Source: Gammaproteobacteria bacterium (GTDB taxonomy: Bacteria > Pseudomonadota > Gammaproteobacteria > Arenicellales > UBA868). From it: 64,000 bases of DNA. The first letter of the stretch is position 1. Each line of letters starts with the position of its first letter. The translations under genes and the position numbers were made by a program. The notes below the pieces were generated by a model. It saw nothing but the letters and a program-made list of their open reading frames with translations, searched no databases and was not told where the DNA came from. Location: contig JAKUQR010000005.1 of the NCBI GenBank assembly GCA_022450155.1, positions 1 through 64,000 of the forward strand, given 5' to 3'. Below are positions 5,257-20,930 of the stretch, in pieces.

Positions 5257-7566
5257 CTATTCAACCGGGGCCGGCGCAAAGACCTCACGTTTTCCACTTT
5301 CGAGTGGCCCGACCACGCCCGAAGCCTCCATGGCTTCTATCATTCTCGCCGCGCGGTTATACCCAACCCTGAGGTGTCTCTGAACCGACGAGATTGAAGC
5401 GCGTCTTGTTTCAGCAACAAATGCAAGCGCCTGGTCGTATAGCGGATCACCTTCGCCCCCAATAGCGTCGTCTCGTCCAGAGCCGAGTTCCTGGGAGGCC
5501 TCCGAATGAATCACAGCATCTAGATATTCGGGTACACCACTCTGGCGTAAATGTTGTGTGACTCGCAGAACTTCCTGATCCGAGACAAAAGAACCATGCA
5601 CTCGGACTGGATAGCCGGTACCAGGTGGCAGAAAAAGCATATCGCCATGCCCCAGCAGTTGCTCCGCTCCCATTTGGTCGAGAACGGTACGAGAATCGGC
5701 ACGCGAACTCATCTGGAATGCTATGCGGGTTGGGAAATTTGCCTTGATCAGGCCTGTCACAACATCCACAGAAGGTCGTTGAGTCGCCAGCACCAGGTGT
5801 ATACCAGCTGCTCTTGCACGTTGTGCGATCCGGGTGATCAGCTCCTCGATTTTCTTTCCCACCACCAACACGAGATCGGCAAATTCGTCTACGATCACCA
5901 CGACGTAGGGCATTTTTGCCAGCGTCGGTGGCTGGCGGTCTCCCTCGCCACCGATTGGCTCATAGAAAGGATCCGGAAGCGGCTTTCCGGAATTTATCGC
6001 AGCGAGAACCTTACGGTTGTACCCCATAATGTTCCTGACACTGAGGGACGCCATCAGCCTGAATCGGCGATCCATTTCGCCCACGCACCAGCGAAGCGCG
6101 TTGGCGGCTTTGTTCATATCAGTGACAACCGGTGTCAGTAGGTGAGGTATTCCGTCATAACCAGACAATTCAAGCATTTTGGGATCGATCATGATCAGTC
6201 GAACGTCCTCTGGAGTCGACTTGTAAACAATGCTTAAAATCAACGCATTGATGCAGACCGATTTTCCTGATCCCGTGGTGCCTGCTACCAGTAAATGCGG
6301 CATCTTGCACAAATCATCGATTACGGGCTGCCCTGAAATGTCCTTACCCAGCACGAGCGTCAAAGGGCTTTTACTCGATTCATAGACTTCAGAAGCCAAT
6401 CCCTCAAGCAGGCACACGGGTTCCCTCAGCTCATTAGGAATCTCCAGTCCGATGTATGTTTTGCCGGCAATATTTTCAACCACCCTGACGCTGATCACCG
6501 ACAATGAACGGGCAAGATCCCGAGCCAGACTCACCACCTGGCTTGCCTTAACACCCGGTGCCGGATCGATTTCAAAACGGGTGACCACGGGCCCTGGCTG
6601 AACTGATTCCACTCGCACATCGATGTTGAAGTCCATGAGCTTTTTCTCAACCAACCGGGACATCATTTCCAAGGTTTCCTTGCTGTATCCCTGAACCTTC
6701 GCATCTGGTTTATCAAGCAGGCCTAGTGCCGGTAGTGACCCCTGCGGGACCTTATCCTCTGTAAACATAGGGATTGGCGCCTGCTTCTCCTTGTAGATAC
6801 GGGCGCTCTCCCTGGTTTCAGTGACCTTAGGCTCTATACGCGGGGGACGTTTCTTGGCACGATTCCGGTTGATTTCTGCCACTGTATCTTGTCGTTTTCG
6901 TTTGAGCCTGGATCCCCGTACCTCATCAAACCAAATCGTTACCCGTTGCCATATCCTCTCAGAACACCTGCAGGTCAATTCTCCAACCTTATCCATGATC
7001 GTGAACCAGCTGACGTCCATAGACCAGGAAATCCCAGCAATAAAGACCACCAGAAATACAACCGTTGCACCGACTATCCCAAATGAATCAGAAGCCCACG
7101 CCCCCGCCAACATGCCGATCCAGCCACCTGACTCGAACGGCATAGTGCGGGACCAGGAGAAGTAATGTAGGAATTCGATACCACACGCTGACAGAAGCAC
7201 GAATATCATACCGGCCCCATGAACCAGCTTGGAATATCCCATACCTTCACTGTCCGATCCACGCAACAGTCGCCAACACACCACACCAAACAGGATCGGT
7301 AAAAAGTAGGCGGAGTAACCTAATGCATTCAGCACCAAGTCTGAAAACCAGGCGCCGAATCTGCCGCCAAGGTTCTGGACGTCATTACTGACTCCCGTGT
7401 GCGTGTAACCAGGATCGCTGCTTGAATAACTCACCAAACAAACCAATAGATAGGCTGTGAATGCACCCAGAGCAATGACCAACACCTCCTTGCCCAAACG
7501 CAACAGTCTTGGTGACACACGGACATGAGTCCGTTCCACTTGTTTGGGCGACTTCGCCTGGGCCAC
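5257..7566 (-). CDS. ftsK: DNA translocase FtsK
   Basis: FtsK sits at the division septum and pumps DNA so that the chromosome termini are cleared and XerCD can resolve dimers at dif. The 769-residue form is short-linker: four N-terminal membrane segments (residues ~25-190), a charged linker, the RecA-like motor, and a C-terminal winged-helix gamma domain. Walker A GTTGSGKS lies near residue 430 and Walker B reads [11 protein letters not shown]. The gamma domain is seen in [21 protein letters not shown]. The frame begins with GTG (GTG-GCC-CAG) and no good ribosome binding site is visible, so the N-terminus may be off by a few residues. It is first in the run ftsK-lolA-crcB-serS and is divergent from trxB. 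Confidence 0.95.
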
Positions 7567-10509: not shown

Positions 10510-13500
10510 ATGCGCCCGTTACCAGACGAATTCAAGCCAAGCTCCGATTCGACCCAGGCCACCCCCTGGCCTGATCTGTATGGCAGCGCCGAGGGATTTG
10601 CGATAACGCGCTTAGCTGATCGGCTGGAAAAGCCGGTGGTTGTCATCGCCAACGATTCTCGGCGGATGAAACTCCTGCAGGAGGAAATAGCTTTCTTCAT
10701 TCAGGACCATTCTACCCCACCCCTATTGTCTCTCTCAGACTGGGAGTGCCTGCCGTATGATGTTGTTTCACCTCAGCCAGAGGTCATATCGGACCGACTG
10801 AGAACACTTGCTCAAATCCCGCATCTCGAACGGGGCATCTTGCTTTCAACCGTACCCGCACTGATGCAAAGACTCCCCCCTTCTGACTACTTCTTGGGCC
10901 ACAGCTTTTTACTCGAGACTGGTCAGACAGTGGTTCCAGAGAATCTTCGAAAACGACTTCAGGAGGCTGGATATCTATCTGTATCGCAAGTTCTTTACCA
11001 GGGAGAGTATGCAGTTCGCGGCGGAGTCGTTGATATTTTCCCCATGGGCTGTAGCGACCCATTCAGGCTCGACCTCTTTGGGGACCAATTAGAAACCATC
11101 CGCTTGTTTGACCCAGCGTCACAAAGATCGTCTGCTACCAGAAGTTCCATAGAACTCCTCCCTGCTCGGGAGTATCCCACAGACAGCGACGCGATCACTC
11201 GGTTCCGGGCCAATTTTCGGCGTCAATTTGAAGGCGATCCACAGAAGCATCTAGTGTACCGAGAAATCAGTAAAGGCAATCTACCCGCGGGTCTGGATTT
11301 CTTTTGGCCATTATTTTATGGCGAGACCAATACCCTGTTTGAACATCTGCCCTCTAACGTCACGTGGGTCCTGGACAAAGGTTTTCGAGACAGCGTCGAC
11401 AGACAATGGGCATCGATCATTGACCGTCATAAACTGGCATGTCTCGTGCCCGAAAGACTCCCCCTGCCACCCGAACAACTGTACGCTTCGCCAACCGAAA
11501 TAATCCAGCGAGTGGATACTGAGACCAGGGCCTTTCTAGACACAAAATCACATGAGCAATCGGAGGGCGTTAAACCTGGTATTTTTTGGGTCGAACCGCG
11601 AAGCAACGAACCGTACAGTGCTGTAATTCAACATCTTCAACATACGCCTTGCAGGACTCTACTCGCGTTTGAATCCCAGGGCCGACAGGACATCATTAAC
11701 GAGGTTCTTGGAAGTCGTGACATGTACCCGACTAAAGTGGATGCATGGACTGAATTTGCGGACGAGGATGGCCCCCAACTCGCGACAATAATCTGTCGGC
11801 TCGAACGCGGTGCTGTTTTTCGGGCCTTGGGGTTGGAGGTCTTGACCGAAACCCAGATATTTGGCGAGCGGATTACTCACAAACCGAGGCGTGCCGCCCG
11901 ATCACGTGATCCTGAAAGTATCATCCAGTCGCTTGCCGAACTGAAGATTGACGATCCGGTGGTCCATGAAGATCACGGTGTAGGGCGCTACAGGGGCTTG
12001 AAGGTCATGCGCATATTGGAGCACGAGAGCGAACTGATGGTTATCGATTATCAGGGTGGCGACAAACTTTACGTGCCGATCTTGAACCTGCATCTGGTAA
12101 GCCGATACCTGGGCGGCGACTCCGAGACTGCGCCACTGCATAAACTAGGGTCCGAACAATGGGCCAAAGCTAAAGTCAGAGCCGTCAAGCGCACCCGCGA
12201 CACAGCCGCCGAACTGTTGGAAATACAGGCAATCCGGACGTCTCGAACCGGCAACGCCCTCGCTATACCGACGCCGGAATACTCGGAGTTCGTATCAAAG
12301 TTCGTTCACGAAGAGACGCCTGACCAGATCACCGTGATGGAGGATGTTCTGAGTGACCTGGTATCCGATCGGCCAATGGACCGGCTGGTCTGTGGCGATG
12401 TTGGATTCGGCAAAACCGAAATTGCACTTAGAGCTGCGTTTGTAGCGGTTCACAATGGGAAACAGGTTGCATTATTGGTGCCCACAACGTTACTGGCACA
12501 ACAGCACTTTGATACTTTTCTCGATCGTTTTTCCGACCAGCCTGTGAGTATCCGATGTATTTCCCGCCTGCAGACCACCAAAGAAGTTGAAAAGACCCTG
12601 GCAAATCTTCATAACGCCTCCCTAGATATCGTAATCGGAACACACCGCCTGTTACAGCCCGATGTATCTATTAAGAATCTAGGACTGTTAATCATAGACG
12701 AGGAACACCGGTTCGGCGTACGCCAAAAAGAGCACATCAAAAAACTTCGAAAGGTCGTGGATATCTTGACACTCACCGCAACCCCGATTCCCAGGACATT
12801 GAATTTCACCATGGCTGGGGTCCGTGACATTTCACTGATTGCTACACCACCCGAACAGCGCGTCGCTATCAAGACATTCATCCGAATCAGGCACGATGGT
12901 CTTATTCGGGAGGCCTGCCTGAGAGAGATAAACCGTGGCGGACAGATTTTCTTCTTACACAACCAGGTCAGATCTATCGGACGCGTAAGAGATGCGCTTC
13001 AGGCTCTCGTCCCAGAAGCAACCATTGGAATCGCGCACGGCCAGATGCCGGAATCGGAACTTGAAGTCGTGATGAGACACTTTCAACAACAGCGATTCAA
13101 CCTGATGGTGTGTAGCACCATCATAGAAAGTGGTATCGATATTCCCAACGCCAATACCATACTGATCGATCGCGCCGATCGTCTGGGGCTTGCACAACTG
13201 CACCAGATCAGAGGGCGTGTCGGGCGGTCAAGTCGACAGGCCTTTGCCTACCTACTTATACCCGATGAAATACCGATAACTGAGAGTGCATCAAAACGTC
13301 TTGAAGCAATCGCTTCCCTAGAAGGACTCGGTGCAGGATTTGCACTGGCATCCCACGATCTCGAGATCCGAGGTGCTGGAGAACTCCTCGGAGAGGAACA
13401 AAGCGGAACAATCGATGATATTGGATTTAGCCTTTATGCTGATTACCTCAATCGTGCTGTCAGGGATCTAACGAAACTCCCAGACGACAACGAAAACGTT

Positions 13501-13956
13501 CTCTACGAATCAGTTCGAACCGAGGTCGACCTCGATCTGCCAATTCTTTTCTCGGACAGTTATCTGCCCGACGTCCATACCCGATTGTTGCTGTATAAGC
13601 GAATCGCAAATGCACGAACTGCCGAAGAACTGTATGACTTGCAGTTGGAGACACTCGACCGATTTGGCCTGCTGCCCGAGGCCGCAAAGTCGGTCTTTGC
13701 TGTCAGCGACATCAAGTTAATAGCGACCGGCCTTGGGATAGAGAAAATTCAACTGGGACACAAAGGTGGCTTTGTGAAATTTTCCGAACATACCTTGCTG
13801 AATCCAATTTGTATCGTTGACCTTCTTGAATCCAGCAACGGTGAGATCCGCATGCAAGGCACCTATACGCTAAAGATCACTACATCTGTGCCCCTGCCAC
13901 AAGATAAAATCACCTACACAAAAAAGTTGTTGGCTCTATTGGGGGATAACTCATGA
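10510..13956 (+). CDS. mfd: transcription-repair coupling factor Mfd
   Basis: Mfd removes RNA polymerase stalled at lesions and recruits UvrA to the transcribed strand. The 1148-residue protein has an N-terminal UvrB-like region (to ~residue 340), an RNA-polymerase-interacting domain starting near residue 485 (DDPVVHEDHGVGRYRGL), and a RecG-like helicase. The helicase shows Walker A GDVGFGKTEIALRA near residue 638, the DEEH box IIDEEHRFGVRQ near 730, and GIDIPNANTILIDRADRLGL. A TRG motif and a C-terminal autoinhibitory domain follow. A possible -10 (TAGAAT, 10469-10474) lies upstream without a good -35. The gene stands alone, divergent from ispD and convergent with the polysaccharide cluster. 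Confidence 0.97.
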   Translation: MRPLPDEFKPSSDSTQATPWPDLYGSAEGFAITRLADRLEKPVVVIANDSRRMKLLQEEIAFFIQDHSTPPLLSLSDWECLPYDVVSPQPEVISDRLRTLAQIPHLERGILLSTVPALMQRLPPSDYFLGHSFLLETGQTVVPENLRKRLQEAGYLSVSQVLYQGEYAVRGGVVDIFPMGCSDPFRLDLFGDQLETIRLFDPASQRSSATRSSIELLPAREYPTDSDAITRFRANFRRQFEGDPQKHLVYREISKGNLPAGLDFFWPLFYGETNTLFEHLPSNVTWVLDKGFRDSVDRQWASIIDRHKLACLVPERLPLPPEQLYASPTEIIQRVDTETRAFLDTKSHEQSEGVKPGIFWVEPRSNEPYSAVIQHLQHTPCRTLLAFESQGRQDIINEVLGSRDMYPTKVDAWTEFADEDGPQLATIICRLERGAVFRALGLEVLTETQIFGERITHKPRRAARSRDPESIIQSLAELKIDDPVVHEDHGVGRYRGLKVMRILEHESELMVIDYQGGDKLYVPILNLHLVSRYLGGDSETAPLHKLGSEQWAKAKVRAVKRTRDTAAELLEIQAIRTSRTGNALAIPTPEYSEFVSKFVHEETPDQITVMEDVLSDLVSDRPMDRLVCGDVGFGKTEIALRAAFVAVHNGKQVALLVPTTLLAQQHFDTFLDRFSDQPVSIRCISRLQTTKEVEKTLANLHNASLDIVIGTHRLLQPDVSIKNLGLLIIDEEHRFGVRQKEHIKKLRKVVDILTLTATPIPRTLNFTMAGVRDISLIATPPEQRVAIKTFIRIRHDGLIREACLREINRGGQIFFLHNQVRSIGRVRDALQALVPEATIGIAHGQMPESELEVVMRHFQQQRFNLMVCSTIIESGIDIPNANTILIDRADRLGLAQLHQIRGRVGRSSRQAFAYLLIPDEIPITESASKRLEAIASLEGLGAGFALASHDLEIRGAGELLGEEQSGTIDDIGFSLYADYLNRAVRDLTKLPDDNENVLYESVRTEVDLDLPILFSDSYLPDVHTRLLLYKRIANARTAEELYDLQLETLDRFGLLPEAAKSVFAVSDIKLIATGLGIEKIQLGHKGGFVKFSEHTLLNPICIVDLLESSNGEIRMQGTYTLKITTSVPLPQDKITYTKKLLALLGDNS

Positions 13957-14054
13957 ATCAGAGCTAGTGCCTGTTTTAGCGGCTAACCCAGACCTATGGT
14001 TTGAATCAGACTCTGCCAGGTTCACGGCTATACCGTTGTACCAGAGGTGAACTA

Positions 14055-15962
14055 TCAACGCGAGAAACTGATCACTTGGGCAGAGTCAGTCTCCTCCACT
14101 AGTTTTCTCTGCATGTATTCCGGCACTAATTCCTTCATGATCTGCTCGATTGCATCAGTGTCGGATTGCTGACATTTAGAAGTCAGCAACCTAACAGCAT
14201 TCACAACTGAATCGCTGTTTAGGACCCTACTTTCAGCTAGATTGATCTGCTGGTGCAGTGTTTTCCCAAGTATCTCCTCGTGATGAAACAGTTCCTCCAC
14301 CAGTTTTTCGCCTGGTCGAAGGCCGGTATAAACAATTTCAATCTCTCGGCCGGGTATCAGGCCGGCCATACGAATGAGTTGTTTTGCGAGATAGGAAATC
14401 TTGATCGGTTCCCCCATGTCAAGCACAAATATTTCACTGCCCTGTCCCTGAACACACGCCTGCATGATCAATTGACACGCTTCCGATATTGTCATAAAGA
14501 ATCGCGTCACATCGGGATGGGTGACGGTGACTGGTCCGCCCTCTTCGATCTGTTTCTCAAATAGCGGTACCACACTGCCCGCAGACCCCAGTACGTTACC
14601 GAAACGTACGGTTATAAAAGCGACCCCGGACTGTGTGTTTCGAGCCTGAACCAGGACCTCAGCCATGCGTTTGGTTGCACCCATGATACTCGTCGGGTTG
14701 ACCGCTTTATCGGTCGAAATCAGAACAAATTTTTCGCAACCAGTTTCACAACTCACTCGCGCCATTACATCTGTCCCAACCACATTATTTCGGACAGCTT
14801 CCCGGACTTGCTCTTGCAGCGAAGGGACGTGTTTGTAGGCTGCCGCATGAAACACGATATCCGGCATATACTGGTTGAATACTGCTCTGACCCCGGGTTC
14901 ATCACATACATCTCCCAGCCGCGCATGTAATGCTATATCCGGGTGCTTGTTCTCTATTTCGTGACCGATCCTATACAAGTTGAATTCACTCTGGTCCAGC
15001 AATATCAGCGATGCCGGGTTCAATCGAACCACTTGGCGACATAACTCACTGCCAATGGACCCTCCCGCACCCGTTATGAGCACGTTCTTACCGGTCAGGC
15101 CGCTTGAAATTAGGTCGATATCGAGCGACACCGGATCTCGACCCAATAGATCATCCAACGCGACTGGTCTCAGATCCCGACTGCGAGCAGTTCCATCCAG
15201 TATGTCCTGCACCTTAGGCAAGGTACGGTAGGAGACCTGCGCCTGCTCACAGTAATCTACGATACGCCGCATGTCCTGTGTCACGGCACTGGGTATCGCA
15301 AGCAATACCAGTTCGATGCGTAACTCTTTGGCCACTCTGGGTAACGCTGAACACGCGTCAACCACCCGAACTCCCTGAATATGGCGTCCTTTCTTATCCG
15401 GATCGTCGTCTAGATAGGCTATCGGCTCGTACAGTACCGGTGTTGAGTTCCTGAGATCCCTGACCAACATATCGCCAGCCACACCAGCACCAATTACTAA
15501 AACCCGCTTACCGGACCCACTCGGTCCAGCGCGTGTGTGATAAGCGCGATAAATCAACCGGTTGGCTACCAGCAATCCGATAAGCAGCACACTATGTAGT
15601 GGAAAGACAGACCTCGGCACAGCCTCAAGCCGGGTTGCAAGAAAAATCGCAACCGCGATCAAGGCTGTTCCAAAGAATACCGACTTAACGATGGCAGAGA
15701 CGTCCGGCGCAGATGTAAATCGCCATGCACCTCTAGGAACCGCAAATGCAAGCGACATCGCCACATGGAGCAGGACCACCAAGGGCAGCATTGCGATTGC
15801 CTGGTCTAGAAAAGGCTGCGGGATAGTATCGAGATTAAAACGAAACCAGTAGGCCACTAACCAGGCGATGATGACCATCAACGCGTCATGCAGGATCACT
15901 GGCCAGCGACCGGCGTAGTACCTCAACTCCTCGACTGCGTTTTCGCTGTTACTGCTCTTCAT
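14055..15962 (-). CDS. CapD/WbpM-type nucleotide-sugar 4,6-dehydratase
   Basis: The 635-residue membrane-bound enzyme belongs to the WbpM/PglF/CapD family, which converts UDP-GlcNAc to its 4-keto-6-deoxy form as a precursor of N-acetylated deoxy sugars. Four hydrophobic N-terminal segments (residues ~25-130) are followed by a first Rossmann fold (VLVIGAGVAGDMLVRDL) and then the catalytic SDR domain. The latter carries VLITGAGGSIGSELCRQV, HAAAYKHVPSLQ, and STDKAVNPTSIMGATKRMAE, where Met-Lys replace the usual Tyr-Lys pair. UDP-GlcNAc as substrate is the family norm and is not proven here. It overlaps the upstream transferase gene by 14 bases and is the last gene of the polysaccharide cluster. 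Confidence 0.9.
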   Translation of the reverse strand: MKSSNSENAVEELRYYAGRWPVILHDALMVIIAWLVAYWFRFNLDTIPQPFLDQAIAMLPLVVLLHVAMSLAFAVPRGAWRFTSAPDVSAIVKSVFFGTALIAVAIFLATRLEAVPRSVFPLHSVLLIGLLVANRLIYRAYHTRAGPSGSGKRVLVIGAGVAGDMLVRDLRNSTPVLYEPIAYLDDDPDKKGRHIQGVRVVDACSALPRVAKELRIELVLLAIPSAVTQDMRRIVDYCEQAQVSYRTLPKVQDILDGTARSRDLRPVALDDLLGRDPVSLDIDLISSGLTGKNVLITGAGGSIGSELCRQVVRLNPASLILLDQSEFNLYRIGHEIENKHPDIALHARLGDVCDEPGVRAVFNQYMPDIVFHAAAYKHVPSLQEQVREAVRNNVVGTDVMARVSCETGCEKFVLISTDKAVNPTSIMGATKRMAEVLVQARNTQSGVAFITVRFGNVLGSAGSVVPLFEKQIEEGGPVTVTHPDVTRFFMTISEACQLIMQACVQGQGSEIFVLDMGEPIKISYLAKQLIRMAGLIPGREIEIVYTGLRPGEKLVEELFHHEEILGKTLHQQINLAESRVLNSDSVVNAVRLLTSKCQQSDTDAIEQIMKELVPEYMQRKLVEETDSAQVISFSR

Positions 15963-16989
15963 TTTGACTAAGGCGCGCCCGTTCTTTTCGTCGCACTGCC
16001 AGTCCGCAGCCCGCCAGTGTCACAAGGCCCAGCATGATCCAGAACCATTGTGGACCGAACCCGTGGATCAGAAACGTAGCGTAAATCGACAAGCATAGCG
16101 TAATCACCACAGCCAACAATGTCACTTGTGCGTGATTATAGCCAAGACGAACCAGTCGCTGGTAGAAATGACTCGAATGCGCTTCCCACCAGCGTTCACG
16201 CCTTAGAATGCGGGCAGAAAGTGTTAGAGTCGCATCACAGAACACCACACCGTAGAGAAGCACAAACGCTTCGACCGGCAAGCGATATGAAGTCCAGCCG
16301 ATGATCCCCATTACTGCAAAATACATTCCCAATGTAAGACTTCCAATATCACCGAGAAAAACACGCGCAGGTCGCCAATTAAGGATAGAAAAACCGATCA
16401 AAGCACCCGCAAGCGTCAGGTTCAACAACACAAGGTTGGGGGCACCTGCCTGGTGGAACCAGAACGCCAAGACGATTGTCGCAATCGTCGACTGCGTCGC
16501 GATCAATCCATCAATACCGTCCATAAAATTGAACAGATTAGTCATCCACACGACCCAGACCACGAGTTCAATAAACAGCAGCCAGTAGGGCTGCTCCAGA
16601 CGATAACCGGCAATATGAATACCCTGTGAGCGCGCAAGTAGATATACCATGATGCAGGCGATCACAACCTGTATGAAAATTCTCGACCGGATCGTCAAAT
16701 TACGCCGATCGTCAAACCATCCCAGTACTGCGATGCACCCGAGTAACAGTGCGATCAATACATCCAACACAGTGATCGATTCGAGGATCAACTGATAAAT
16801 TGCGATCAGTGATACTGTCGCAACAATAATCACTATCCCACCACCCCTGGGAACAACTTGACTGTGCAGACTGCGGGTATTAGGTCGATCTGGAACCAGA
16901 ATACTCGAGTTGTGCTGTAAAAGGTAAGACAGCAGGCTATAAGTGGCGAGGCTACTCAGTAGCAGCAACAGCGCGGAGACAGGCGTCAT
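15949..16989 (-). CDS. WecA/WbpL-type undecaprenyl-phosphate glycosyl-1-phosphate transferase
   Basis: This multi-pass membrane protein (346 aa, about ten hydrophobic segments) belongs to the MraY/WecA superfamily. It starts a polysaccharide chain by moving a sugar 1-phosphate from a UDP-sugar onto undecaprenyl phosphate. Diagnostic cytoplasmic-loop motifs are SLHSQVVPRGGG, the FNFMDGIDGLIATQS metal-binding loop, and NWRPARVFLGDIGSLTLGM. The genomic pairing with a WbpM-like dehydratase resembles wbpL-wbpM of Pseudomonas O-antigen loci, so FucNAc- or QuiNAc-1-phosphate is a likely donor by inference. The ATG is clear and the 3' end overlaps the dehydratase gene. Confidence 0.9.
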   Translation of the reverse strand: MTPVSALLLLLSSLATYSLLSYLLQHNSSILVPDRPNTRSLHSQVVPRGGGIVIIVATVSLIAIYQLILESITVLDVLIALLLGCIAVLGWFDDRRNLTIRSRIFIQVVIACIMVYLLARSQGIHIAGYRLEQPYWLLFIELVVWVVWMTNLFNFMDGIDGLIATQSTIATIVLAFWFHQAGAPNLVLLNLTLAGALIGFSILNWRPARVFLGDIGSLTLGMYFAVMGIIGWTSYRLPVEAFVLLYGVVFCDATLTLSARILRRERWWEAHSSHFYQRLVRLGYNHAQVTLLAVVITLCLSIYATFLIHGFGPQWFWIMLGLVTLAGCGLAVRRKERARLSQNEEQ

Positions 16990-17035: not shown

Positions 17036-18601
17036 TCAATTGTACAGAGGTCGGATACGTCGACTGAACCGCCCCAAACAGTCCTTCAGGATATGGTGGG
17101 TGCTTGCTTCTGCCACCTGCTCATTGATGCCGACGAGGGCATCAAGACACAGTTCTGAAATATCATCAACATGGACTCGTTGGTGACCATCAATCAGAAA
17201 CTGATGTTGACTGTTCGAATCAGAAATAGAATCTAACATGTTGTTATTATGCAGATTAGTATAGTTTTTATGGCTGACATGATTAAGCCACGACTGCAAG
17301 ACGAATGGCCCTCGTTCGAGCCAGCCAGCTGTTGTTTCGGACACTGGTGGTTTCTCGTCAGTGCTGTTTTGTTCAACTGCCTTGGCTTCAACTCTGGTCT
17401 CCAGCAGCAGCTGTAAGCTGAAGGCTCGATGTGCAAATCGCTGTTGATAGGTCGTCAGTCGATCAGCGGATCCTAAACATATGATGCAGCTAAACTCAGG
17501 CCAGTCTCTGTCAGGCACCTTTGCAGTGTATTCTGACGTAATCCAGGTAACCCGAGGTATTCGGGGTGCTGTTTGAGGGTCGGTTGTTTCTACAAATACG
17601 ACGTAACCCCGGGCTGCCAGTCGCATCACAACCGAACGCACTAATCGGGACTGCGCTCCGATGACGAGCACACCGTTACCGTTTGTCTCAGGCCAGGAGC
17701 CTTCGAACTGACCTGGATCTTTACCGCAACTCGCCTCGGGTTTAGCAAGATCGGCCAAACTTTTTACCTTTAAATGTGACTGCGACATCAACGATATCGC
17801 ATAAGCGGCGAAGGAATGCCGGTTTGAATGTTTCCTAAAGTAAGTCATCAGCGAGTGATGCTTATGGCGGGCAATTTCAACCGAATTAACGCCGCTTGAT
17901 ACAGCCCCCACATGTACAGCCGATACGCCTGGATTGAACACAACTTTAGACCCCGCTTCCCTGACCCGCCGACAGAGATCCAGATCTTCGAAATGAAGAA
18001 AATAGTCTTCATCCATCCCGCCCAACTCGTTGTAGAGTGACTTCCTGATGGCAAAAAAAGAACCTGACACCGCATCCACATCAATGCTATCTTGTGGCAT
18101 TGGTTCGTTTGTCATATCTATTGTTGGCATATTCCTGAGTGGGAATAATTTGCCCAACATCTTGCCAATAGTTCGGATCAGCGTCACATCGTGGCGTCTA
18201 CAACCTGCCTGCTCGCGCCCGTGAATTCCAAATACCAATCCACCCACTAAACCGACTTCTTGCTGATCCTTTAACAATCTGCACAGTCGATCAATGGTGT
18301 GTGGCCACACCAAGCAATCTGGATTGATGACGACCAAAATATCCCCTGATGCGACCGACGCGCCAATATTGACGGCCGCAGAGAATCCCAGATTTCGATC
18401 GTTTTGGATGTATTTTTCATTTTGCCTCCCGTTACATCCCAGTGCCCAAATTTTGCTGATATCCCTTGAGTGATTATCGACCACGATCAACTCCACTGCT
18501 GGGGTCGATTTTCTGATTCGCTCAATGCATAGCCCAAGGAACGCACCCGCATTGTAATTAACCACGATGGCAGAAACAGCCGGACAGGTGTATGGGTTCA
18601 T
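17036..18601 (-). CDS. GT2 glycosyltransferase fused to a degenerate Rossmann/epimerase-like domain
   Basis: Residues 1 to ~285 are a rhamnosyltransferase-like GT-A enzyme (family GT2). The evidence is AIVVNYNAGAFLGLCIERI, ELIVVDNHS, NLGFSAAVNIGA, the DxD-like INPDCLVW, and the acceptor loop FLHFEDLDLCRRVREAG. After a linker, residues ~306-521 read GNGVLVIGAQSRLVRSVVMRL, a dinucleotide-binding-like glycine turn. Near residue 475 comes VHVDDISELCLDALVG, typical of extended SDR sugar epimerases. The YxxxK catalytic motif is not visible, so the second domain may be non-catalytic. The product is predicted cytoplasmic and adds a sugar to the growing O-polysaccharide; donor and acceptor are unknown. 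It lies between wzt and the WecA-like gene. Confidence 0.8.
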   Translation of the reverse strand: MNPYTCPAVSAIVVNYNAGAFLGLCIERIRKSTPAVELIVVDNHSRDISKIWALGCNGRQNEKYIQNDRNLGFSAAVNIGASVASGDILVVINPDCLVWPHTIDRLCRLLKDQQEVGLVGGLVFGIHGREQAGCRRHDVTLIRTIGKMLGKLFPLRNMPTIDMTNEPMPQDSIDVDAVSGSFFAIRKSLYNELGGMDEDYFLHFEDLDLCRRVREAGSKVVFNPGVSAVHVGAVSSGVNSVEIARHKHHSLMTYFRKHSNRHSFAAYAISLMSQSHLKVKSLADLAKPEASCGKDPGQFEGSWPETNGNGVLVIGAQSRLVRSVVMRLAARGYVVFVETTDPQTAPRIPRVTWITSEYTAKVPDRDWPEFSCIICLGSADRLTTYQQRFAHRAFSLQLLLETRVEAKAVEQNSTDEKPPVSETTAGWLERGPFVLQSWLNHVSHKNYTNLHNNNMLDSISDSNSQHQFLIDGHQRVHVDDISELCLDALVGINEQVAEASTHHILKDCLGRFSRRIRPLYN

Positions 18602-18796: not shown

Positions 18797-20131
18797 TCAA
18801 ACTTCACTAATGGACATGTTCATTTGAGCAAGTCCAAATCCGCCATAGTCACCTCTGACAGTAAGATGTATCAGGTCGTATCGACGGTCTATCGCGATGT
18901 TGTCACGCTCTCCGTCATCCAGCGCGACACCAAGTGATATGAAATATTCACCTGGCACCAGGTTTAGATCGAACTGAAAACGGACGACGACGGTCATTCC
19001 AGCCTTACCATGGCTGACATCTATAGCGCGTTCCCTAGTGTTAGTCCCATAGACCGTCTGGCCGTCGACAGTTTTAACAGTGCAGCCATAGATCAGGTCA
19101 GTTAATTCCTGGAAAAAGCGAACATGGACCATCAATTCTAGGTTTTCTCCGGACTCGAATACCACCTGGTCGTCGCCAGAGTTAGACTTAAGCTGGTAGT
19201 CCATTATGGCTGCTCGCCGGTCTCCCCAGCGATATTCGTTAGGGTTGTATGATCGCCGCTGCTTACAGTGGTCCTGAGCTAAATCGGATGACGCTGGCGC
19301 AGCCCAGGCTGGGCTGGTGTCAGCATCCGTCTGATCGCCTTCAGTAGCTTCCTCACTGGGGCCAACCTTCCTCGGTTGCTGAACCTCACTTCCGAACAGG
19401 TGTTCCAGATAGGCCTGGATCACGGCCTTGGGCTCTCCAATAGCTTCTATGTTGCCTGCATTCAAAAAAACAGCCCTTGAACAGTGATTTTGGATCAGTT
19501 CGACCGAATGTGAGACGAACAGTATTGTTTTCCCAGATGCCTGCATCTCCTGGAACCGCCTATAACATTTACGCTGGAACCGGATATCACCTACGGCCAG
19601 CGCTTCGTCAACGATCAGAATATCTGGATCTGAACTGATAGCTGTTGCAAATGCCAGCCTCACGTACATCCCACTGGAATAGGTGCTGACGGGGTGATCA
19701 ATAAATGCTCCGATATCAGCAAATTGGAGAAGCTCGTTCAACTTAGCCTCCAGGCTATGCTTTGGAATACCCAATATTGAAGCATTGAGATAGACGTTTT
19801 CACGGCCTGTGAATCTGGGATTGAACCCTGCACCCAGTTCCAACAGAGCAGACACTGTGCCCTGTCGTACGACCTCACCATGCGTGGGAGACAAGGTACC
19901 CGAGATAATCTCAAGCAGGGTCGATTTTCCAGACCCATTGGGTCCGATAATTCCGATTGTCTCACCTTGAAACACCTCAAACGAAATATTATCCAACGCC
20001 GTAAACTCATGGTGATATTTTCGACCGCGTATCGAATACAGCTCCCTTATTCTGTCCATCGGTCGGTTATAGATCCTATAGACCTTCCCCAACTCAGTCA
20101 CTGTCAACGCCGATACAGTGTCAGAGCACAT
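18797..20131 (-). CDS. wzt: O-polysaccharide ABC exporter ATPase Wzt
   Basis: This ATPase powers export of undecaprenyl-linked polysaccharide through Wzm. The nucleotide-binding domain occupies residues ~1-250: Walker A GPNGSGKST, a signature STYSSGMYVRLAFA, Walker B ILIVDEALAVGD, and switch histidine FVSHS. The C-terminal ~150 residues are a beta-rich Wzt-type carbohydrate-binding domain (from YRWGDRRAAIMDYQL on). This domain is known in the family to recognise the modified chain terminus and so set chain length. I chose the ATG at 20131, preceded by AAAGGA and overlapping the end of wzm by 11 bases, over a longer frame starting 63 bases earlier, because the extra residues look unlike the family. 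No terminal-capping enzyme (WbdD-like) is seen nearby. Confidence 0.92.
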   Translation of the reverse strand: MCSDTVSALTVTELGKVYRIYNRPMDRIRELYSIRGRKYHHEFTALDNISFEVFQGETIGIIGPNGSGKSTLLEIISGTLSPTHGEVVRQGTVSALLELGAGFNPRFTGRENVYLNASILGIPKHSLEAKLNELLQFADIGAFIDHPVSTYSSGMYVRLAFATAISSDPDILIVDEALAVGDIRFQRKCYRRFQEMQASGKTILFVSHSVELIQNHCSRAVFLNAGNIEAIGEPKAVIQAYLEHLFGSEVQQPRKVGPSEEATEGDQTDADTSPAWAAPASSDLAQDHCKQRRSYNPNEYRWGDRRAAIMDYQLKSNSGDDQVVFESGENLELMVHVRFFQELTDLIYGCTVKTVDGQTVYGTNTRERAIDVSHGKAGMTVVVRFQFDLNLVPGEYFISLGVALDDGERDNIAIDRRYDLIHLTVRGDYGGFGLAQMNMSISEV

Positions 20132-20930
20132 CTGCAAATCCTTTGCGCACTCTTTCAAACCACAAGAATCCCAGATAGGCGAACACCAGCGCAACGACTG
20201 TGTAAATACCGATTCCCAATATATCCGGTGCGGCGTTCTTCAATAAAAAGTTTCGTAACTGCTCTATCGGAAAGGTTATTGGATTTAGATAGAGAAGGGG
20301 CTGAATGCTCTCGGGCAACGCACTCTTGGGATACAGGATTGGTGCCATAAAAAACAGTACTGTACTAATCACGCCCATCAACTGGCCAATATCCCTAAAG
20401 TAAACCGCTGCCGCAGACACAAACCAACCGATTCCTAAGCACACAATTGAGATCATTACAAATGGCAGCGGTATAAAAACTACAGACCAGCCAAATGAAT
20501 GGTCGTTTTCCAACAAAAGTAAGCCGAGCAAGTACAGGATTAATACAAAGAGGCTAATACCAGCCTGGAATAAAGCGGACAAAACCGTCACCCAGGGGAG
20601 CGCCTCCAGTGGAAAAACTACTTTCTTAACGTATTGTGGATTATCTGCGATGACGGTGGTCGACTGAATAAGACAATCCGACAGTAAGGAATGTATGATC
20701 ATTCCTGAAAACAATATTGCTGGAAATCGCGCTAAGCCACCCTCTTGGGCAGGCCAGCGAATTTCTAGGACCAGGCCGAATACAAACGTATAGATCGCCA
20801 ACATAAGCATTGGCGTAAGGAGTGACCAGATAAGTCCCAACGCTGTACCCCGGTAGCGCGTGAGAACAGCGCGGCGGGTGAGCTGATGGATGACAAAACG
20901 GTTCGACCGGTAACTACCGAACAAAGCCAA
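20121..20930 (-). CDS. wzm: O-polysaccharide ABC exporter permease Wzm
   Basis: This 269-residue ABC-2 type inner-membrane permease has about six membrane segments and forms the channel for Wzt-driven polysaccharide export. The N-terminal amphipathic part reads RAVLTRYRGTALGLIWSLLT, the classic start of the polysaccharide-exporter subfamily, where R-Y-[RK]-x-[TS]-x-L-G-x-x-W is recurrent. Further markers are FPAILFSGMIIHSLL and LFFMAPILYPKSALPE. It precedes wzt with an 11-base overlap and follows rfbA after a 73-base gap, so it may have a separate promoter or be read from the rfb genes. Its presence indicates that the polysaccharide uses the ABC route instead of Wzx/Wzy. Confidence 0.92.
   Translation of the reverse strand: MALFGSYRSNRFVIHQLTRRAVLTRYRGTALGLIWSLLTPMLMLAIYTFVFGLVLEIRWPAQEGGLARFPAILFSGMIIHSLLSDCLIQSTTVIADNPQYVKKVVFPLEALPWVTVLSALFQAGISLFVLILYLLGLLLLENDHSFGWSVVFIPLPFVMISIVCLGIGWFVSAAAVYFRDIGQLMGVISTVLFFMAPILYPKSALPESIQPLLYLNPITFPIEQLRNFLLKNAAPDILGIGIYTVVALVFAYLGFLWFERVRKGFADVL

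Follow-up and report, generated by a model that had tools for sequence, protein, structure and literature searches.

The window analysed here is a stretch of 64,000 nucleotides from a gammaproteobacterial contig (JAKUQR010000005.1, assembly GCA_022450155.1), and its open reading frame at 17036-18601 on the minus strand opens with ATG, has zero internal stops and encodes 521 amino acids, made up of a family 2 glycosyltransferase (GT2) and a vestigial SDR tail. A reading of the sequence alone had described a GT-A domain followed by about 215 residues (about 210 by the present count) with a Rossmann-like start (GVLVIGAQSRL, residues 310-320) and a late motif of the extended-SDR kind, VHVDDISELCLDAL at residues 476-489 (containing VHVDD), and had seen no YxxxK in the tail; all of this was recovered, YxxxK being absent from the whole protein. 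The question that the locus raises is what such a tail is and what, if anything, it still contributes to the transferase.

Reality of the 521-residue form

The same protein exists in another species of the window's genus (MAG REDSEA-S15_B12, genome G003), where the copy L003 likewise has 521 residues and aligns without gaps at 66% identity; this is the sole other complete copy of the 521-aa form that was found. A third member of the genus, G005, is represented by two pieces: the first 207 residues, 88% identical, where one contig breaks off, and the last 53, with the same RPLYN-stop, on a second contig, so that the RPLYN C-terminal end is common to three members of the genus. The gapless copy and these fragments indicate a 521-aa form shared throughout the genus, not an artefact of assembly. 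A join, through frameshift or misassembly, of the transferase with random sequence or a broken gene would account for the lack of a Pfam match above cut-off in the tail, yet it is hardly credible when architecture, length and frame are identical in an independent MAG of a second species, when sister genera carry intact fusions and when likeness to A1, the profile built from eleven relatives' SDR domains, is confined to the coding frame. The frameshift between two genes that the earlier reading had allowed for was thus ruled out, together with a chimera, by the gapless alignment with L003 and the match of the coding frame only.

The transferase domain

Residues 1-262 (17816..18601, minus strand) constitute a GT2 domain of the GT-A type with intact active-site motifs, over residues 7-230 of which Pfam places GT2 families (PF13641, E 2.5e-20; PF00535, E 4e-18). 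Membership of GT2 is borne out by the profile as well as by the motifs N93-P94-D95 and E205-D206. The former, NPD (residues 93-95; 18317..18325, minus strand), is the DxD-like metal/nucleotide site of GT2 and is invariant in alignments A2/A3, and the latter is held within HFEDLD (residues 203-208; 17978..17995, minus strand) as the ED motif of the presumed catalytic base, H203, E205, D206 and D208 being invariant in the family alignment.

A shrunken SDR in the tail

Pfam scanning of the tail returned nothing significant. The A1 profile matched it at 318-422 and 481-496 (E 6.7e-12; this numbering starts at the preceding stop codon, so that 7 must be subtracted to obtain ATG-based residue numbers), and the tail was the only A1 match in the window's genome (E 1.1e-9). 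Close matches in the bacterial family are mostly of 585-637 aa and carry the GT2 followed by a complete SDR of about 290 aa; those relatives' SDR domains that were tested match Pfam Epimerase at E 1e-8 to 3e-15 (L005: 3e-15). An AlphaFold model of the intact fusion L005 reached a mean pLDDT of 82 and a pTM of 0.81, and its best PDB matches were complex I NDUFA9 subunits and UDP-sugar 4-epimerases. In the model of the window protein, beta-alpha elements appear over residues 310-401, with moderate confidence (about 56-77 as block means across 310-400), but pLDDT falls below 50 at 403-475, after which a helix covers the VHVDDISELCLDAL stretch. Foldseek matches of this model were dominated by the GT domain and were uninformative for the tail. 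The A1 match, the complete SDR domains of the relatives and the modelled elements together show that the tail is a shrunken SDR, descended from a GT2-associated atypical SDR domain which we name SDR*.

Read from the transferase onwards (all on the minus strand), the protein continues with a modelled helix (264-286) and a linker of low confidence at 288-308, together forming a weakly constrained segment at residues 263-308 (17678..17815). Residues 309-402 (17396..17677) are what is left of the Rossmann half of SDR*, from beta1 to beta5, and include the degenerate NAD loop GAQSRLV (residues 315-321; 17639..17659), in which the third Gly, held by 56 of 60 SDR*, is replaced by Val. The low-confidence stretch at residues 403-475 (17177..17395) corresponds to the old active-site region and the RPTxxYG of the relatives, and VHVDDISELCLDAL (17135..17176), the second A1 match, aligns as a P-x-H-x-D-D remnant of SDR*.

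Compared with a canonical extended SDR, the tail has GAQSRLV where a Gly-rich NAD loop (GxxGxxG or GxxxxxG) would stand, is devoid of YxxxK and the upstream catalytic Ser, and lacks the complete Rossmann fold with a C-terminal substrate domain, its C-terminal third being missing. Compared with SDR*, it retains the profile match by descent (the A1 value above, at a syntenic position) and has lost the signature GAxSxVG, SSTSxxxK, RPTxxYG and PxHxxD. The tail can be regarded, as far as its motifs tell, as an SDR* descendant and not a working member.

SDR* and its association with one transferase

At E 1e-20 or better with A1, SDR* was detected in 62 of the order's 109 genomes and in 32 of 369 genomes sampled across the class, scoring far above other SDRs, for which the next-best matches lie at about 1e-4. 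Intact SDR* loci numbered 60. In 28 of them SDR* forms one protein with a GT2 of the same clade, and in 22 its gene follows such a GT2 gene immediately; in the other 10 the flank examined contains no GT2, some of these flanks being cut short by a contig end. In the order, GT2 fused to a complete SDR of about 290 aa is the normal form; across the class, SDR* mostly has a gene of its own that immediately follows GT2. The search for other proteins of this architecture, advised by the sequence-only reading, was productive, 28 of the 60 loci being such fusions, and the same result overturns its view that linkage of a transferase to an epimerase-like module is unusual, as fusion or an adjacent GT2-SDR pair is the rule in the order. 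GT2 homologues without SDR* occur in Alphaproteobacteria and Thiomargarita. The fused or split state switches at least 4 times in the GT2 tree, where the order-level fusion forms one clade (100/98 support). Pseudomonas plasmids, too, carry both genes of the GT2-SDR* pair. On one of them, a conjugative plasmid (L144, 6094-7891; NZ_CP097494.1), the pair closes a polysaccharide cluster, and the annotated SDR start at 7205 omits the Rossmann loop, the tblastn match beginning at 7001.

Three proteins of 978-982 aa (L097, 496-3441; L098, 484-3429; L100, 409-3342) consist of GT2, an SDR* without YxxxK and a canonical SDR with (Y/F)AKSK, and this canonical domain, aligned to the profile, anchored the YxxxK columns. 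In the lineage examined, L132, WbpL- and WbpM-type genes follow the three-part protein. At the Tyr column none of the 60 SDR* has Tyr, mostly Ile, Leu or Val standing there, and at the Lys column Leu is found in 57/60 and Lys in 0/60. The missing YxxxK is thus no peculiarity of the window protein, being common to the whole SDR* group. Conserved instead are Gly11 (59/60), Gly17 (56/60), Arg36 (56/60), Lys105 (58/60) and Glu124 (60/60), along with the segments SSTS (98-101), RPTxxYG (142-148) and GxRxPxHxxD (176-185). SSTSxxxK is conserved in this group that lacks YxxxK, and a catalytic role for it is speculation; intact SDR* may be an enzyme with an unusual active site or a cofactor-bound subunit. 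Tentatively, SDR* could be an unrecognised, class-wide and near-obligate partner of one GT2 clade, with SSTSxxxK for YxxxK and either another catalytic mechanism or a cofactor-holding role as a subunit, which was fused several times, turned in the window's genus from a binder of cofactor into a stub with a purely structural part, and was relocated in its sister genus.

Cluster surroundings

The gene belongs to an O-polysaccharide cluster, with Wzt- and Wzm-type O-polysaccharide ABC exporter genes upstream (18797..20930, minus strand; Wzt_C PF14524, ABC_tran; conserved in G001). Downstream, also on the minus strand, lie a WbpL/WecA-type undecaprenyl-phosphate sugar-1-phosphate transferase (15949..16989; PF00953, TIGR02380 below cut-off) and a WbpM-type nucleotide-sugar 4,6-dehydratase (14055..15962; PF02719), both in the same position in relatives, and then Mfd. 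Further genes of the upstream cluster we take to be Ugd, HldE, HldD, RmlB and RmlA, judging by their protein sequences rather than by a family scan. The order GT2-SDR*-WbpL-WbpM-Mfd recurs with the pair fused in G008 and G010 and split in G033, and the intact fusions of 585-637 aa hold this very place in sister genera. RmlC and RmlD homologues are both present at another locus of the window's genome (G000:C8); dTDP-L-rhamnose can therefore be made without SDR*, and SDR* as the RmlD completing dTDP-rhamnose was discarded.

As a side observation, the polysaccharide cluster adjoins mfd in several families of the order, most of which have a short gene (about 190-240 aa) for a secreted-like protein in between; in the window, the gap at 13957-14055 that separates Mfd (10510-13956) from the WbpM-type gene lacks it.

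Decay in the window's genus and its sister

Approximately 7 of the 31 columns conserved in 85% or more of SDR* survive in the window (G, A, L, T, K, H and D). Conservation of the NAD-pocket residues, which the sequence-only reading had proposed to check, was not observed: Val (Leu in L003) stands for the third Gly and Thr/Asn for Arg36. The SSTS position reads LETR, and RPTxxYG and everything beyond the HxxDD helix are missing in the window's genus. Of the HxxD motif, H and D are still present, and so is the Lys of SSTSxxxK, which is not kept in L003. What sets the window protein apart in the alignments is the loss of the third Gly, the SSTS serines, RPTxxYG and the C-terminal third.

The missing part of SDR* was not found in other reading frames of the window locus. 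Rescue by a second SDR* copy was also rejected, none being present at E 1e-20 in four draft genomes of the genus (G000, G003, G004 and G005; genomes 81-95.5% complete); below that value the best matches were the remnant itself and a weak match of 55 positions in G004. Another candidate, the SDR on contig C26 of the window's genome (L126, 7546-8409), proved not to be SDR*.

In the sister genus (G001, G002) the fused copy is shorter still, with frames of 491-492 aa, and each genome has, at another locus, a free SDR* whose neighbours in the tree are the fused SDR* domains of the family, as would be expected of a relocated copy. Its persistence there as a free protein suggests that SDR* can act in trans. 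Both free genes (L127, 7571-8464; L129, 6242-7258) lie away from any polysaccharide cluster and near what look by eye like a gamma-glutamyltransferase-like and a trimethylamine methyltransferase-like gene. Parsimony favours two decays, a single shared decay not being rejected (p-AU 0.084). The stem of the window's genus (L001/L003) in the GT2 tree is long, at 0.95 changes per column, and on this account the transferase itself may have changed as its SDR* half decayed.

Selection on the remnant

Nei-Gojobori dN/dS values with 1000 bootstraps, obtained for one species pair (window and L003) and averaged over sites, were 0.12 (0.07-0.18) for the GT domain, 0.70 (0.25-1.64) for the linker, 0.24 (0.11-0.44) for the Rossmann half at 309-402, 0.71 (0.34-1.34) for the middle at 403-475 and 0.32 (0.13-0.70) for the VHVDD end at 476-521, with zero indels across the 521 codons. 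On these regional values constraint persists in the Rossmann half and at the end of the remnant, and the lost active-site region drifts. A slow-decay relic on one side of the species pair would likewise yield dN/dS below 1.

Proposed explanation and its rivals

We assign a probability of roughly 60% to the following reading: the GT2 of this O-polysaccharide (LPS) cluster would descend from a GT2-SDR* fusion whose SDR* half decayed, in the window's genus, to a half-Rossmann stub and one helix with a structural part to play, the transferase remaining active. Fusion ancestry, decay, motif loss and continued purifying selection on the stub emerge from the comparison of sequences. Since the cofactor loop has gone, together with the serines of SSTS and most residues on the substrate side, the tail would neither bind NAD(P) or a nucleotide sugar nor catalyse. 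The transferase half presumably still adds one sugar to the growing O-chain, dTDP-rhamnose as donor being a guess from the cluster only. Purifying selection on the Rossmann half (dN/dS 0.24) makes the remnant probably a structural stub and not a sensor or an enzyme, and we infer that packing against the transferase or its neighbours in the complex, or stabilising them, is what has preserved it.

Among the rivals, a pure relic, in which the tail is decaying without present function and the transferase domain alone matters, is unlikely without being negligible: the near-neutral middle and linker and the even shorter tail of the sister genus speak for it, against which stand the values for 309-402 and 476-521, whose upper limits lie below 1, and the indel-free alignment of the whole gene with L003. 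Somewhat less probable still is an inactive module that regulates the transferase and goes on holding NAD(P)H or a nucleotide sugar, as NDUFA9 holds NADPH structurally in complex I. Selection on the Rossmann half, the retained first Gly, His and Asp of conserved motifs and the best fold match of the intact relative, an NADPH binder without known catalysis (PMC8762328), would suit it; the Val/Leu in place of the third Gly of the loop, the Thr/Asn in place of an Arg36 held by 56/60 SDR*, the loss of SSTS and RPTxxYG and the lack of confident predicted structure at 403-475 count against it. A tail still working as an unconventional reductase or epimerase on the transferase's sugar is very improbable, since the cofactor loop and most conserved residues are gone and the Lys of SSTSxxxK, which the window retains, is missing from the sister species L003, even though SDR-fold enzymes without the catalytic Tyr exist, for instance SimC7 (PMC5039031).

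The structural reading thus appears to fit the selection data better than nucleotide-sugar binding or regulation. The core of the earlier description, a GT-A transferase carrying a degenerate, YxxxK-less module of the SDR type, stands; its suggestion of an unusual linkage does not, and that of a tail binding a nucleotide sugar or regulating the transferase has no residue support with the pockets gone, although the tail may make some ligand contact through the surviving H and D of HxxD.

Significance and comparison with known systems

Polysaccharide clusters contain many genes annotated 'NAD-dependent epimerase/dehydratase' from fold alone. SDR* lacks the SDR active site class-wide and yet keeps to one transferase across fusions, carriage on a plasmid and wide divergence, and its staying with that transferase is a testable sign that it serves it. 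The window's genus amounts to a natural deletion, revealing which part of the partner is dispensable and which is still kept; the stepwise loss of a partner protein becomes visible and points to an unstudied enzyme pair, GT2-SDR*, this conserved pair being the most interesting outcome of the analysis. Fold and families are known, and the window protein is a degraded variant. The GT2-SDR* pairing and the loss of YxxxK were not found described among the open-licence papers searched, which had nothing relevant on GT-SDR fusions or on YxxxK-less SDRs in O-antigen clusters.

UDP-4-keto-HexNAc reductases of the WbpV/WbpK type are encoded by an SDR gene beside WbpL and WbpM, and they are canonical SDRs with YxxxK. 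SDR* differs in lacking this canonical active site and in occurring also without WbpL/WbpM nearby (L131, L137, L005, L006), and in one lineage, that of the 982-aa fusions, a canonical SDR lies alongside it in the same polypeptide; for these reasons the reading of SDR* as a WbpV/WbpK 4-ketoreductase serving WbpM is weakened. NDUFA9, the 39-kDa subunit of complex I and the closest PDB fold to the intact relative L005, has the SDR fold and binds NADPH with no catalytic activity shown, indicating that SDRs can be structural (PMC8762328); it keeps its NADPH site and belongs to complex I, whereas the window stub has lost the site. The ketoreductase SimC7, a weak sequence match to the A1 profile, is an SDR superfamily enzyme without the catalytic triad that works without Tyr (PMC5039031); unlike the window tail, it has a polyketide substrate, a complete fold and proven activity. 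The nearest counterparts are the GT2-SDR* fusions and pairs of Gammaproteobacteria, whose annotations say no more than 'glycosyltransferase family 2 protein' and 'NAD-dependent epimerase/dehydratase family protein', for example on Pseudomonas plasmid pBYT5-5. They share with the window the same transferase, SDR partner and gene order, and within the window's taxonomic order the same WbpL-WbpM neighbours; in them SDR* is complete, whereas in the window it is a stub.
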